From Planctomycetaceae bacterium (GTDB lineage Bacteria; Planctomycetota; Planctomycetia; Planctomycetales; Planctomycetaceae): a stretch of DNA of 32,451 nt. The translations under genes and the position numbers were made by a program. Each line of letters opens with the position of its first letter. Within the stretch, counting starts at the first letter, position 1. The notes beneath the pieces were generated by a model. It saw nothing but the letters and a program-made list of their open reading frames with translations, ran no database searches and was not told the origin of the DNA. Of the stretch, positions 1,508-29,103 are shown in pieces. Location: the NCBI GenBank assembly GCA_020850695.1, contig JADZEF010000375.1, positions 1 to 32,451 on the forward strand, read 5' to 3'.

Positions 1508-3026
<1,519 letters not shown>

Positions 3027-4589: not shown

Positions 4590-5846
4590 ATGCCTCAGAA
4601 GGGTCTTTCGCGGCGCGACTGGTTGCGGAACGGCGCGGTCGGAGCGGTGGGGGCCGCAACGGCCTGGTCGGCACATCAGAAGGCCGCCGAGGCCGATGAG
4701 GCTCGCGGCAAGCCAAGTTCGCTGACGATCACCAAGGTCGAGACGTTTCCGGTCGAACACAAGATGAAGTATGCAATCGGACCGTCGGTCTCTCAGTCGA
4801 ACGTCCGCGCGTCGCTGCTGGTGAAGATCAGCACCGACAGCGGACTCGTCGGCTGGGGCGAGACGGCCGACGTCGGCGGCACGCACGGCATCATCGAGAA
4901 CCATCTCAAGAGGGTCCTTCTCGGCCGCAATCCCCTCAAGTACCGCGAACTCGTCCGCGACCTCTGGGGACCGAACTTCGGCGATGGGCGAGCGATCGGT
5001 GCTGTCGACATCGCCCTGCACGACCTCCGCGGAAAGGCCCTCGGACTGTCCGTCAGCGAGCTCTACGGCGGCGGCCACCGCACCAAGGTGATGGGCTATG
5101 CGGCGGCCATGAACTACGTCGTCGGCAACGATCCCGCCGAGCAGAACCCGCCCGAGGCGGCGGCCCTCAAGGCCCGCGGCTTCAAAGCCATGAAGATCCG
5201 CACCGGCCGTGATGGTCTGAAGAAGGACATCGCGGTGATGGAGAAGATCCGCGCCGCCGTCGGCCCCGACGTCCGCCTGCTGACCGACGCCAACGGAGCG
5301 ATGACGCTCCCCGCGGCGGTGAAGTTCGGCAAGGAGCTCGAGCGGCTCGACTTCTACATGTTCGAGGAGCCGTTGCCGCAATACCCCAACTATGCGGGGT
5401 ACGACGTGCTGGCCCAGGAGCTCGACATCGCCCTGGCCGGCGGCGAAGTGCTTGACTCGCGAGCGTCGGCGAAGGAACACATCGTCAAGCGGTCGTTCGA
5501 CATCATCCAGGCCGATGCCTCGCTGTGCGGGGGGATTTCGGAAGTCCTCTTCATCTGCGAGATGGCCCGGCTCTTCAGCATTCAGCCGCTGCCGCACTGC
5601 TGGGCCGGGGCACTCGTCATCGCCGCCACGCTGCACCTCAACTCGCTCATTCCGCCGCACTACACCGGCTTCAAGGAAGGGGACGAGCCGATGCAGGAAT
5701 TCGACGTCTACGAAAATCCGTTCCGGGACGAGATCGTCACGAAGAAGCCCGACATCGATAAGGACGGCTACTTCCAGGTCCCGACCGGCCCCGGCCTCGG
5801 CGTCGAGATCATCGAGGACGTGGTCAAGAAGTACGTCAAGAAGTGA
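4590..5846 (+). CDS. Tat-exported mandelate racemase / muconate lactonizing enzyme family protein
   Basis: Enolase-superfamily enzyme (418 residues from this start). It would act on a carboxylate substrate by Mg-assisted alpha-proton abstraction; the substrate is unknown. The catalytic set is visible: a KxR base motif (MKIR, Lys202/Arg204), metal ligands Asp233 (LLTDAN), Glu259 or Glu260 (FEEP) and Glu286 (AGGE), then Asp309 (QAD) and His336 (PLPHCW). The Asp-His dyad is the signature of the mandelate racemase subgroup. An N-terminal SRRDWLRNG followed by an Ala/Gly-rich hydrophobic stretch is a twin-arginine signal, so the folded enzyme should be exported. ATG 4590 was chosen because GGGA lies nine bases upstream; ATG 4581 is in frame but has that motif directly against it. 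Confidence 0.9.
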   Translation: MPQKGLSRRDWLRNGAVGAVGAATAWSAHQKAAEADEARGKPSSLTITKVETFPVEHKMKYAIGPSVSQSNVRASLLVKISTDSGLVGWGETADVGGTHGIIENHLKRVLLGRNPLKYRELVRDLWGPNFGDGRAIGAVDIALHDLRGKALGLSVSELYGGGHRTKVMGYAAAMNYVVGNDPAEQNPPEAAALKARGFKAMKIRTGRDGLKKDIAVMEKIRAAVGPDVRLLTDANGAMTLPAAVKFGKELERLDFYMFEEPLPQYPNYAGYDVLAQELDIALAGGEVLDSRASAKEHIVKRSFDIIQADASLCGGISEVLFICEMARLFSIQPLPHCWAGALVIAATLHLNSLIPPHYTGFKEGDEPMQEFDVYENPFRDEIVTKKPDIDKDGYFQVPTGPGLGVEIIEDVVKKYVKK

Positions 5847-5897: not shown

Positions 5898-6021
5898 CAA
5901 AGAAAGTAGCCTTCTCGCTCCGCGAGAAGAAAGCCGGGCGCAGGCGCGGCGTCGCGCGACGATCAAAGGTCGATCACGCGCACGGCTTACCTCTCGCGGA
6001 GCGAGAGGGCTACCTTCTTTG
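5898..6021. repeat. Paired inverted stem-loop element with GTAG/CTAC ends (BIME-like), copy A
   Basis: Two 38-base arms (5898-5935 and 5984-6021) are inverted copies with 34 of 38 positions matching. Each arm is GTAGC (GTAG at 5906-5909; CTAC at 6010-6013), an 8-bp stem with a three-base loop, then AAGCC. The left stem is CTTCTCGC-TCC-GCGAGAAG (5911-5929). The right stem, read inverted, is CCTCTCGC-TCC-GCGAGAGG (5990-6008). The second stem pair changes T-A to C-G as a unit. The rest of the 424-base gap between the racemase-family gene and nadE holds no recognisable gene. The same design recurs at 27878-28168. Confidence 0.88.
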
Positions 6022-8337: not shown

Positions 8338-8378
8338 GCATCGTCCGAAGACACGTGAACCGATGAGCCGATGCACTC

Positions 8379-8450
8379 GTATCACGGGCACTCCTGCCCG
8401 TGCGAAACCCTACGCATCGTCTCACGCACGGGCAGGAGTGCCCGTGCTAC
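8379..8450. repeat. Paired inverted stem-loop element (BIME-like), copy C
   Basis: Two 26-base arms (8379-8404 and 8425-8450) are inverted copies matching at 25 positions. Each holds the stem CACGGGCA / TGCCCGTG around CTCC. The right arm ends in CTAC (8447-8450), the inverse of GTAG; the left arm has GTAT in its place, the single mismatch. It lies between the convergent nadE and DadA-like genes, so a role as a bidirectional terminator is also possible, although there are no T-tracts. Confidence 0.82.
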
Positions 8451-8523
8451 GTGCAGACCGCGTTTCTGACGCAGCCTATGCAGTCGAAGGGGTCAATCCG
8501 ACGGCCCCGACGGAAGGATCGCG

Positions 8524-22845: not shown

Positions 22846-23048
22846 GGGCTGAAGGCCCGAAACTCAATAGCCTGGGCCAAGCGAAGCGCCGGCCCAGGTC
22901 ACCGACCCCGTAATTCCTTCAAGGCCTGTAGGGCCGTCACTCCTTCGAAGACCGAGTGACGGCCCTACAGGCCTCAGGCCGCTTTATTGATCCCACCCAG
23001 CCCGGCGCTTCGCTTGGGCTGGGCTGATGAGTAACGGGCCTTCAGCCC
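22846..23048. repeat. Three nested inverted stem-loop pairs
   Basis: Outer pair: 14-base inverted copies at 22846-22859 and 23035-23048 (GGGCTGAAGGCCCG). Middle pair: 31-base arms at 22869-22899 and 22995-23025, each an 8-bp stem around the identical 12-base loop AAGCGAAGCGCC. Inner pair: perfect 20-base inverted copies at 22922-22941 and 22955-22974, each containing GTAG or CTAC. The middle stems are CCTGGGCC/GGCCCAGG and, read inverted, CCCAGCCC/GGGCTGGG, with three compensated pair changes. This fills the 436-base gap before the sarcosine-oxidase-like gene; the remainder, 22662-22845, shows no gene. Confidence 0.85.
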
Positions 23049-24246: not shown

Positions 24247-24322
24247 ACGATCTCACAACTCTTGAAATCTCAGCACCCGATTGCGCGGTCCGCGCACGAA
24301 GTCAGAGGGCGGTCTCTCTCCC

Positions 24323-24485
24323 CTCTGCGTCTTCCCTCTGTGCCCTCTGCGTTCAGCCCTTTCTGCTTTCCCCTCTTCTACTCTCCAGCGTGCGAATCGT
24401 CGACTTGTTCGCTGATCGATATCATCGATCAGCGATCGAACGGCCGAAATCAAGAACGCAGAGGCCGCAGAGGGAAGACACAGAG
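24323..24485. repeat. CGCAGAG-type inverted repeat with central palindrome
   Basis: Outer arms of 32 bases at 24323-24354 and 24454-24485 are inverted copies matching at 29 positions and built of CTCTGCG/CGCAGAG words. Near the centre is a perfect 12-bp dyad with a three-base spacer, TCGCTGATCGAT-ATC-ATCGATCAGCGA (24409-24435). It lies in the 557-base gap before the membrane protein. An open frame upstream of ATG 24804 crosses it but is not a credible protein. The rest of the gap shows no gene. Confidence 0.85.
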
Positions 24486-24803
24486 ATTGGGGAGACGTTC
24501 TCGGAACGCGCCGCACTCCGATGTATTCCGCGGTGGATTGAAGAAGGAAATGCACGGCGTCATCGACTGATGGCTTGCCATTCATTTGCTCTGTCGAATC
24601 ACGACGTCGCCCCTGGTCACATCGCAACCAACGCCTCCCGCCTCCCCAACCGACAGAACCGGCAAATCCCTCAGACTCGACGAGTCGAAGCCCGCCCAAG
24701 CGTAATCCGCACTCCCCCATCGTCCAGAGGGGGACTAACCTTGACGTTGTTGCGTTCCCGCCACGATTCCCCGCAACGACGTCTCCTCCCGACGCGGCCC
24801 GAC

Positions 24804-26410: not shown

Positions 26411-26497
26411 GTGGCTGGGGTCGACCGCAGGGAGCCCCCAGCGAACTTCACCCTGCGTCCAATTGCTGGGGGCTCGCAGGGCCTCGACCCCAGCCAC
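26411..26497. repeat. GTGG-ended inverted stem-loop pair
   Basis: Arms of 32 and 33 bases at 26411-26442 and 26465-26497 are inverted copies, with 14 outer and 11 inner positions identical. Each arm begins or ends with GTGG/CCAC and contains its own stem (GCTGGGG...CCCCAGC). The loop word CGCAGGG reads the same way on the plus strand in both arms, so only the stems look inverted. It begins 17 bases after the membrane-protein stop. Confidence 0.8.
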
Positions 26498-26549
26498 TCC
26501 CTCAGATGACGAATACTTCGCGATCCCGTTTCCGACGGACACTCGAATC

Positions 26550-27878
26550 ATGCCTCGCTCCGCGCGTTCTCTGTCGATCGTGACGATTCTGATCGTCCAG
26601 GCCGTCTTCGTCGTGGCGGTCGCGGTGTCGTATGCGACGCTGCCGCACGACGAGAAGACCGACCTCCAGCGCGATCTGCTGGGCCGCGACGTCTATCCGG
26701 CGACGCCCATCGAGCGGACAACGCCGCTCGTCATCGAACCGCTGTACGACGATCCGAACGTCGTGTCCGACGAAGAACTCGCCGGAGTCCTGCGTCAGCT
26801 GCAGCCGCGATTCCCTCGCGAGAAGATGAAGCCCAACTTCGTCGAGCACGCGCTCCGGACGTGGCGCGCCCGGGCCAAGTTCTCCGATCCGAAAGTCATG
26901 TCGGGCGCCGAGCTGGTCGAGGTCCTCGTCAACCACGGGCGCTACGCCAAGTCGTGGGACGACGGCACGGCCGATCGCACGCCGCTGCTCGAAGCCCGCC
27001 CGCACGGCATCGCCATTCGCATCGGCACCGATCCCAACGAATCGGTCCACCACGACCACTGGCTCGCCAGCCTCACCGAGGCCGGCGTTACGCTCGACAC
27101 GCCCATCTTTGCGCCGGGCCGCGTCAACGCGACGTTCAACGATGTCCTCCAGGAAGCCCTCCGCGACTTCCGCCTGGACGAACGCGAGACCGAGTGGTCG
27201 GCGATGGCCTTCGGACTCTGGATCGTCCCGCAGAAGAGCTGGATGACGACCGCCGGCCGCGAGATCAGCTTCGACATGCTGGCCCGGCGGCTCATCCGCG
27301 GCGACAAGCGGCACGGCGTCTGCAACGGCACGCACCGCGTCTACTCTCTCACGGTGCTGCTGCGGCTCGACGAGCAGTTCGACATCCTCAGCGATGAAGT
27401 CCACGCCGAGGTCTGGGCTCACCTGGAAAGCGTTCGCGACCTGTTGAAGGTGTCGCAGCTCGCAGACGGCCACTGGCCGACCAACTGGTCGAAGGGAGAA
27501 GAGGCCGTTATTGATCCGTTGAACGACCTCGACTACCGCAAGGTGATCGCCACCGGCCATCACCTCGAATGGTTGGCGATTGCGCCGATCGAGCTGCATC
27601 CGCCGCGCGAGCAGATCATCCGGGCGGCGAAGTGGGTCTCGGCGAACACCGTGGCCCGCACCGAGTCGGAGATTCTGGAGCGATACACGTTCTACAGCCA
27701 TGTCGCCAACGCGCTGTCGTTGTGGCGCAAGACAAACCCGCCCGACTACTGGATGGCATGGGAAGCCGCTCATCCCGGCACCGGGACGCCGCCGCCGGGG
27801 ACGCCTCCCGCGCCGCCGGCTCCGTCATCGCCCGAGGGCCCGAAACTCCCGCCGCTCCCCGCCGCGCCGGCCCCGTGA
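26550..27878 (+). CDS. Membrane-anchored protein of unknown function with proline-rich tail
   Basis: 442 residues from ATG 26550; no family name recognised. MPRSARSLSIVTILIVQAVFVVAVAVSYATL is a signal anchor. The body is mostly helical. HGVCNGTHRVYSLTVLLRLDEQFDILSD, LADGHWPTNWSKG and ATGHHLEWLAIAPIELHPP look like the repeated helical hairpins of an alpha/alpha toroid (the terpene-cyclase or prenyltransferase-like fold), which is a guess from pattern only. The last 40 residues are Pro/Gly/Ala-rich (PPPGTPPAPPAPSSP). It follows the membrane protein by 156 bases on the same strand, with an inverted-repeat element between. Its stop codon abuts the next repeat element. Confidence 0.65.
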   Translation: MPRSARSLSIVTILIVQAVFVVAVAVSYATLPHDEKTDLQRDLLGRDVYPATPIERTTPLVIEPLYDDPNVVSDEELAGVLRQLQPRFPREKMKPNFVEHALRTWRARAKFSDPKVMSGAELVEVLVNHGRYAKSWDDGTADRTPLLEARPHGIAIRIGTDPNESVHHDHWLASLTEAGVTLDTPIFAPGRVNATFNDVLQEALRDFRLDERETEWSAMAFGLWIVPQKSWMTTAGREISFDMLARRLIRGDKRHGVCNGTHRVYSLTVLLRLDEQFDILSDEVHAEVWAHLESVRDLLKVSQLADGHWPTNWSKGEEAVIDPLNDLDYRKVIATGHHLEWLAIAPIELHPPREQIIRAAKWVSANTVARTESEILERYTFYSHVANALSLWRKTNPPDYWMAWEAAHPGTGTPPPGTPPAPPAPSSPEGPKLPPLPAAPAP

Positions 27879-28168
27879 AAGTAGCCCTCATGCTCCGCAT
27901 GAGGTTAAGCCATCCGCGGAATCGATCTGGAACATCTTCCAGCGTGGATGGCACCCCACGCTGGGACGCGGGGGCTGCTTGCACCGCACGGCGGTCAACT
28001 TCTCGACGAGCGCACTCGGTAGGAGAGACACGAGTTGCGCGTCGATGGCATCACGGCAGTCCATTGTCTTGCCCAAGAGGCCAATCCGGGAGTGCCCTCA
28101 GCGTCTCCGTTTTTGCCGGGCCGATTCTTCGAACGGCTTAACCTCATGCGGAGCATGAGGGCTACTTT
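27878..28168. repeat. Paired inverted stem-loop element with GTAG/CTAC ends (BIME-like), copy B
   Basis: The 34-base arms (27878-27911 and 28135-28168) are perfect inverted copies. Each is AAAGTAGC, the stem CCTCATGC-TCC-GCATGAGG (27886-27904), then TTAAGCC; CTAC is at 28162-28165. The left arm begins on the last base of the preceding gene's stop codon. About 223 bases lie between the arms, holding a 9-bp hairpin (CCAGCGTGG / CCACGCTGG, 27939-27964) and no gene. Compared with copy A (5898-6021), stem positions 5 and 6 differ in both strands of the stem, so pairing is kept. Confidence 0.9.
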
Positions 28169-28248: not shown

Positions 28249-29103
28249 ATGTTCGTTATGCGCCGTGTGCTGCTGCCGTGGATCACCCTGCTTGTCGTCG
28301 GGCTCGCGATTCCCTCGCGGGGCTTCTGCCAGGACGATGCCAAGCTGAAGAAGGTCACACTGCCCGCCAACAAAGGGAAGCTCCATCTGTATGTGCTGAT
28401 GGGGCAGTCCAACATGTCGGGCCGCGGGCAGATTTACGAGCGGGACAAGAAGCTCAACGACCATCTCATCACGTTGACGAAGGATGACAACTGGAAGCTC
28501 GCGTCCGAGCCTCTCCACTGGGACAAGCCGCCTGGCGTCGTCGGCGTCGGGCCGGGTCGAGCCTTCGGGGAAGCCATGCTGGCGGAATCGGAGGACATCG
28601 GCTACGACAAGGACGAAAAGGTGACAGTCGGTTTGATCCCCTGTGCCGAGTCCGGGTCGGCCCTCTCGCGCTGGGAAAAAGGGGGCGACCTGTATGGCCG
28701 CACGTTGAAGCGTGTCCGCCGGGCGATGAAGGACGGGACGCTCAAGGGCTTCCTCTGGCAACATGGCGAGACGGATGCCGCGTCGTACACCGCGGCGACG
28801 ACGTATGGCGATCGTCTACAGCGGATGATCGCCGACATGCGCGAGCAACTGGGGCAAGGGGACGTCCCGTTCGTCGCCGGCAAAGTGAGCCGGCTGCTGC
28901 CGCTCGATCGATTTCCCGCCACGGATCTGGTCAACTCGGGAATCGACGCGCTGCCGAAGCGCGTCAACGCGTTCGGCATCGTATCGACCGACGGGCTCAA
29001 CATGATGGCGGACGGCGTCCACTTTGATGGACAGTCGTCGCGGGTGCTGGGAAAGCGGTTCGCGGGAACGATGCGGGAAGTTCAGAAGAAGGCCAGGAAG
29101 TGA
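28249..29103 (+). CDS. Exported sialate O-acetylesterase-like protein (DUF303/SASA)
   Basis: 284 residues with a signal peptide (MRRVLLPWITLLVVGLAIPSRGFC). The SGNH-hydrolase-like motifs of the sialate O-acetylesterase domain are clear: VLMGQSNMSGRG with nucleophile Ser54, GVGPGRAFGEAM, the strongly diagnostic FLWQHGETDA, and DGVHFDGQSS with the acid/base pair. The family removes acetyl groups from sialic acids or from polysaccharides such as xylan, in the periplasm or outside the cell; the exact ester is unknown. Two in-frame ATGs exist, 28249 and 28258; the second gives a more typical signal-peptide start and has GAG nine bases upstream. Its stop overlaps the start of the methyltransferase (GTGA). 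Confidence 0.88.
   Translation: MFVMRRVLLPWITLLVVGLAIPSRGFCQDDAKLKKVTLPANKGKLHLYVLMGQSNMSGRGQIYERDKKLNDHLITLTKDDNWKLASEPLHWDKPPGVVGVGPGRAFGEAMLAESEDIGYDKDEKVTVGLIPCAESGSALSRWEKGGDLYGRTLKRVRRAMKDGTLKGFLWQHGETDAASYTAATTYGDRLQRMIADMREQLGQGDVPFVAGKVSRLLPLDRFPATDLVNSGIDALPKRVNAFGIVSTDGLNMMADGVHFDGQSSRVLGKRFAGTMREVQKKARK

Follow-up and report, generated by a model that had tools for sequence, protein, structure and literature searches.

Element B, the inverted-repeat element at positions 27878-28168 of the 32,451-nucleotide stretch of Planctomycetaceae DNA that was analyzed (the window), is in our estimate, with a probability of about 90%, a REPIN and one member of a dispersed, nonautonomous mobile family. 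This family adds a new member to a well-known kind, the GTAG-tagged REPs and REPINs.

Element B is a head-to-head doublet of GTAG-tagged REPs

By sequence and DNA folding, the left arm of B (27878-27911, forward strand) is one complete GTAG-tagged REP, and the right arm (28135-28168) carries the same REP sequence on the opposite strand with its GTAG tag outermost. As the initial annotation had reported, the two arms are inverted copies that agree at all 34 of their 34 positions. Read 5′ to 3′ from the outside, each arm has the form AAA-GTAGC-CCTCATGC-tcc-GCATGAGG-TTAAGCC and thus comprises GTAG, one nucleotide, a perfect 8-bp stem, and the 3-nt loop tcc. In the left arm, the tag occupies 27881-27884 and the hairpin 27886-27904, and the arm folds as DNA at -7.7 kcal/mol (z -5.1). 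The REP unit is a 24-base hairpin, two inverted copies of which make up a head-to-head doublet with an outer length of 285 bp. GTAG-tagged REPs have been defined by GTAG or GTGG located 0 to 2 nt 5′ of a hairpin with a fully paired basal stem and a 2- to 5-nt loop (PMC6006769), and the tag position, paired basal stem, and loop size of both B arms lie within this definition.

The 223-nt spacer (27912-28134) is unique in the genome by genome comparison; a search across the genome returned no second match, and the spacer has no similarity to RAYT proteins and no match in Rfam. We therefore dropped the candidate explanations that it holds a decayed transposase or is a repeat in its own right. It contains a second palindrome, CCAGCGTGG-8-CCACGCTGG (27939-27964), that occurs in none of the other collected loci. 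On the upstream side, the frame 26463-27878 (forward strand) ends in a TGA at 27876-27878, the last base of which doubles as the opening A of the left arm, as had been noted initially. On the downstream side, a gene for a SASA esterase (Pfam; 28249-29103) starts 80 bp past B.

REPs of this family are dispersed and mostly paired

The window holds another element, copy A (5903-6016), with the same layout as B. It is a REPIN of the 107- to 111-bp size class with stems CTTCTCGC and CCTCTCGC and loop tcc, and the two elements belong to one family. We searched the genome (8.6 Mb in 440 contigs) with a 26-mer and found 93 places at three or fewer mismatches, and the reversed control gave none. This genome has 88 matches to PF07596 (SBP_bac_10, also called DUF1559), a domain with no match in 14 control genomes, and is on that basis taken to be planctomycete. 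This result bears out the proposal of the initial annotation that A and B represent one dispersed, mobile-type family of conserved structure, and it rules out a chance inverted repeat. The pattern GTAGC-N6-GCTCCGC occurs at 91 places (11 for the control), and 35 of these 91 copies carry one identical hairpin. Pattern searches combined with collected stretches of the genome, flanks included, yielded approximately 115 distinct REP copies on many contigs, which establishes the REP as a dispersed sequence of high copy number.

Single REPs are also present. Close pairs follow a consistent architecture, with 39 of 40 in head-to-head orientation. Their outer lengths show preferred spacings of 107 to 111 bp (20 close pairs) and 158 to 191 bp (15 close pairs, with a cluster at 171 to 176 bp), and the spacers of the doublets are poorly conserved, with sequence in common among several of them. 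Inverted REPs at preferred spacing around a less conserved spacer are the arrangement known from REPINs.

B itself could also be read as two single REPs from separate insertions that enclose approximately 220 bp of host DNA. Solitary REPs available for such insertions exist in the genome, none of the 39 doublets is longer than B, and its spacer is unique, whereas other spacers fall into size classes. However, only one-quarter of close pairs would be expected to be head-to-head if insertions were independent, and the inner edge of the right arm of B, TCTTCGAACGGCTTAACC, is common to a 179-bp copy (L013), which suggests that B belongs to the long class in a stretched form. Separate insertion is for these reasons an unlikely account of B, and we favor its assignment as a REPIN. 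Because its spacer is atypically long (285 bp outer length versus 107 to 191 bp for most doublets), B may not be a transposing unit but a copy that was stretched or is composite.

Other repeats were observed in the window. A GTAG-type hairpin pair at 8378-8451, GTAG-CACGGGCA-ctcc-TGCCCGTG, is close to the family flanking a RAYT gene on another contig (C241, L278) and gives the genome of B a second REPIN-like family. Inverted arms of 54 nt at 22846-23048 are like repeats located on both sides of a Y1 transposase gene (C15, L033: AAGCGAAGCGCCGGGC...). GGAGTCA tandem repeats at 2493-2569 and 2982-3025 have an inverted counterpart, and similar repeats flank a further Y1 transposase gene on both sides (C370, L031). 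Finally, 43-nt inverted arms of the CTCTGCGTCTTCCCTCTGTG type surround 99 nt at 24312-24496.

Compensatory changes maintain the small hairpin within each arm

The initial annotation had proposed that covariation be examined at stem positions 2, 5, and 6, and compensatory changes are indeed present at all three among 91 copies that were collected with six stem bases and most of the 3′ strand left unconstrained. Watson-Crick pairs were found in 86 of the 91 copies at position 2 (66 expected), 84 at position 5 (54 expected), and 84 at position 6 (47 expected). None of 2000 permutations reached these values at any of the positions, although the shuffles ignore kinship among copies and the significance is not to be read as an exact probability. 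Such compensatory hairpin changes are likewise a property of REPINs.

The 39 doublets provide 78 cells in which pairing inside the hairpin can be compared with pairing between arms. Inner pairs are kept at positions 2, 5, and 6 in 77, 72, and 72 of these cells, whereas the corresponding counts for arm-to-arm pairs are no more than 66, 55, and 48. Selection therefore acts on the small hairpin inside each arm, where pairing is maintained, and not on the long arm-to-arm stem, where it is not.

This distinction is informative with regard to a classical MITE, which would derive by deletion from a DDE-type insertion sequence, have long terminal inverted repeats that pair with each other, and duplicate its target on insertion. 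B is short, belongs to a dispersed family, and has long perfect inverted arms, as such an element would. However, the two arms of one element in this family can differ at as many as 11 of their 34 positions, and it is the inner hairpins that are kept. Moreover, flanking direct repeats at 40 doublets show no excess over shuffles and hence no target-site duplication, and the transposase associated with these REPs elsewhere (see below) is a Y1/HUH protein. We regard a MITE origin as highly improbable.

The initial annotation had also read the identity of the B arms as pointing to gene conversion or a recent origin. This part was not supported, because both arms simply carry the commonest sequence of the family. 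The exact commonest 34-nt sequence is found in 16 of the 78 arms of the 39 doublets, so that approximately 1.6 doublets would be expected by chance to have both arms equal to it, and three were seen. Gene conversion is thus not needed to explain identical arms. The initial annotation was accurate for the family, its covariation, and its gene-end site, and it had missed that the hairpin is the unit.

REPs are enriched at gene ends and missing from nearly all related genomes

A gene-like frame stops at positions -9 to +1 of GTAG at 37 of 113 REP ends, as scored from gene-like frames rather than from gene annotation of every copy, compared with 0.8% of random points. Thirteen frames stop at +1, 11 of them on the TAG of GTAG itself, and ten stop at -5, as in B. 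This pattern fits the report of Di Nocera et al. (2013; PMC3733652), in which GTAG REPs are located at gene 3′ ends and the TAG of GTAG serves as the stop codon.

Occupancy of this kind is also what would be seen if B were a host RNA element, either a terminator or an mRNA 3′ stabilizer, maintained by selection on RNA with dispersal being secondary. In addition to the third of REP ends near a stop, the RNA fold of B reaches -167 kcal/mol (z -9.6), and its right arm together with TTTT matches a terminator pattern. Yet termination requires neither a conserved GTAG tag nor an outer AAA, RAYT genes are flanked by the same doublets, and the family is missing from nearly all relatives. Specifically, the exact REP pattern is absent from the 58 nearest relatives, and the element is absent from 19 orthologous gene ends in the bacterial family, at 18 of which the upstream gene pair is syntenic. 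The outcome that the initial annotation had set against a mobile family, the same element at the same site in distant relatives, was therefore not encountered. Note that synteny with the relatives was observed for the upstream genes alone, and among the relatives no exact empty site for B was found. A host RNA function has little probability as the origin of the family. A local effect on mRNA ends at element B is possible and is compatible with its assignment as a REPIN, and such a role could be a co-opted local effect rather than the reason for the family.

The same REP type flanks one RAYT clade in other PVC genomes

A scan for GTAGCCCTC-N2-GCTCCGC-N2-GAGG returned Planctomycetes, Verrucomicrobiaceae, Lentisphaerae, and Kuenenia-labelled bins among the matches listed. 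One locus from Planctomycetia (L117, JACOUI010000291.1) is a complete REPtron, with a RAYT gene at 5162-5836, a whole REPIN of the same type as in B on each side, and a stop codon formed by the TAG of GTAG. The L117 protein and a protein from the genome of B (L276) both match PF01797, and NHVH, WQ, and YIxxNP motifs can be read in their sequences, such that both have the HUH motif, WQ motif, and catalytic Tyr of Y1/HUH enzymes.

We used the L117 RAYT to find related proteins in 29 REP-bearing genomes and the genome of B. Nine of 12 RAYTs at least 50% identical to L117 are flanked on both sides by the same REP type, as opposed to none of 21 that are less than 50% identical (Fisher p = 6e-6, from related proteins in genomes that were picked for having the REP). 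The remaining three of the 12 have variant hairpins with related loops, and the more distant RAYTs carry other hairpins. In a phylum sample of 392 genomes, the REP was present in three, the RAYT clade (E ≤ 1e-50) in seven, and both in two (p = 0.0008).

We also observed that in several different REP families the RAYT gene ends exactly on the TAG of a flanking GTAG (L117 at 5014-5016 and 5834-5836, and L246, L252, L256, L257, L260, L273, and L277).

The genome of B has 12 Y1_Tnp matches, and none of these genes is flanked by a CTCATGC REP, the type of the B arms, in the 440-contig assembly, in which a gene may be missed. The RAYT nearest to L117 (50% identity; C323) has GTGG-CACGCGAG-tccc hairpins on its flanks, a type with just four copies in the genome. 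We considered as a cognate a degraded RAYT on another contig (L042, C175; 1453-2000), which is truncated, of the MPDxRRAxVPGGTFFF type, and has a decayed CTCATGC REP just downstream. It was rejected because the REP upstream of it (GTAGGGCAGGCTCC) is from another family, and the downstream REP was taken to be a later insertion. Either the cognate RAYT was lost or missed in the assembly, or another RAYT acts in trans. Only tentatively do we suggest that the REPIN population was orphaned after a fairly recent amplification, or that the diverged C323 RAYT, whose own flanking hairpins have only the loop type in common with the REPs of B, serves it in trans.

Relation to known systems and proposed mechanism

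The elements resemble the ends of IS200/IS605 insertion sequences in having subterminal hairpins, a 5′ guide tetranucleotide, an HUH-Y1 transposase, and no target duplication. The IS200/IS605 ends enclose the transposase gene of their element and do not consist of a single hairpin in two inverted copies, whereas the hairpins described here are inverted, dispersed, and without a gene.

Among repeats of bacterial genomes, Di Nocera et al. (2013; PMC3733652) described 24 families of GTAG-tagged REPs, and R. baltica and O. terrae are among the PVC bacteria from which such REPs were reported. These are alike in having GTAG at one end, a 6- to 9-bp stem, a 2- to 3-nt loop, a predominance of head-to-head dimers, a gene 3′-end site, and a TAG stop, a likeness of architecture. 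REPINs (Bertels and Rainey 2011; PMC3116915) share the inverted REPs, less conserved spacer, preferred spacings, compensatory changes, and, as observed here in other PVC genomes, the association with a specific RAYT. Compared with those, the doublets here are longer (107 to 191 bp for most and 285 in B), and the assembly of B is without a flanked cognate RAYT. The closest structural analogue of a B arm is the REP of the Stenotrophomonas maltophilia REPtron Sm, a REPtron with a group 3 TnpA_REP; this REP likewise combines GTAG with a perfect 8-bp palindrome and a loop of 3 nt (PMC8266576). The loop is tcc here and GCT there, and in B one base separates GTAG from the stem.

These parallels lead us to infer how the family may have spread. 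In single-stranded DNA, such as arises during replication, each arm would fold into its 8-bp, tcc-loop hairpin. An HUH/Y1 transposase of the RAYT type would then bind the hairpin together with the GTAG guide and cut near the edge of the element, by analogy with the GTAG hairpins that are cleaved as single strands, including the REPtron Sm hairpin, for which cleavage at CT was demonstrated in vitro (PMC8266576). The doublet may be moved or copied as single-stranded DNA without target duplication, and transposition as a unit, which has been proposed for REPINs (PMC3116915), would by the same analogy apply to the family of B. Copies would survive mainly where genes stay unbroken, which would place them against stop codons. 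With no RAYT flanked by this REP in the genome of B, its copies may or may not be mobile at the present day.

The findings link REPs of one hairpin type (GTAGC, an 8-bp stem, and the loop tcc) with a single RAYT clade across Planctomycetes, Verrucomicrobia, and relatives, and they make RAYT-REP specificity testable beyond Proteobacteria with hairpins that vary by compensatory change. The genome of B offers a natural example of a REPIN family that is populous and has no flanked cognate transposase in its own genome. If this family is served in trans by the C323 RAYT, the loop and the tag, and not the stem sequence, would set specificity.
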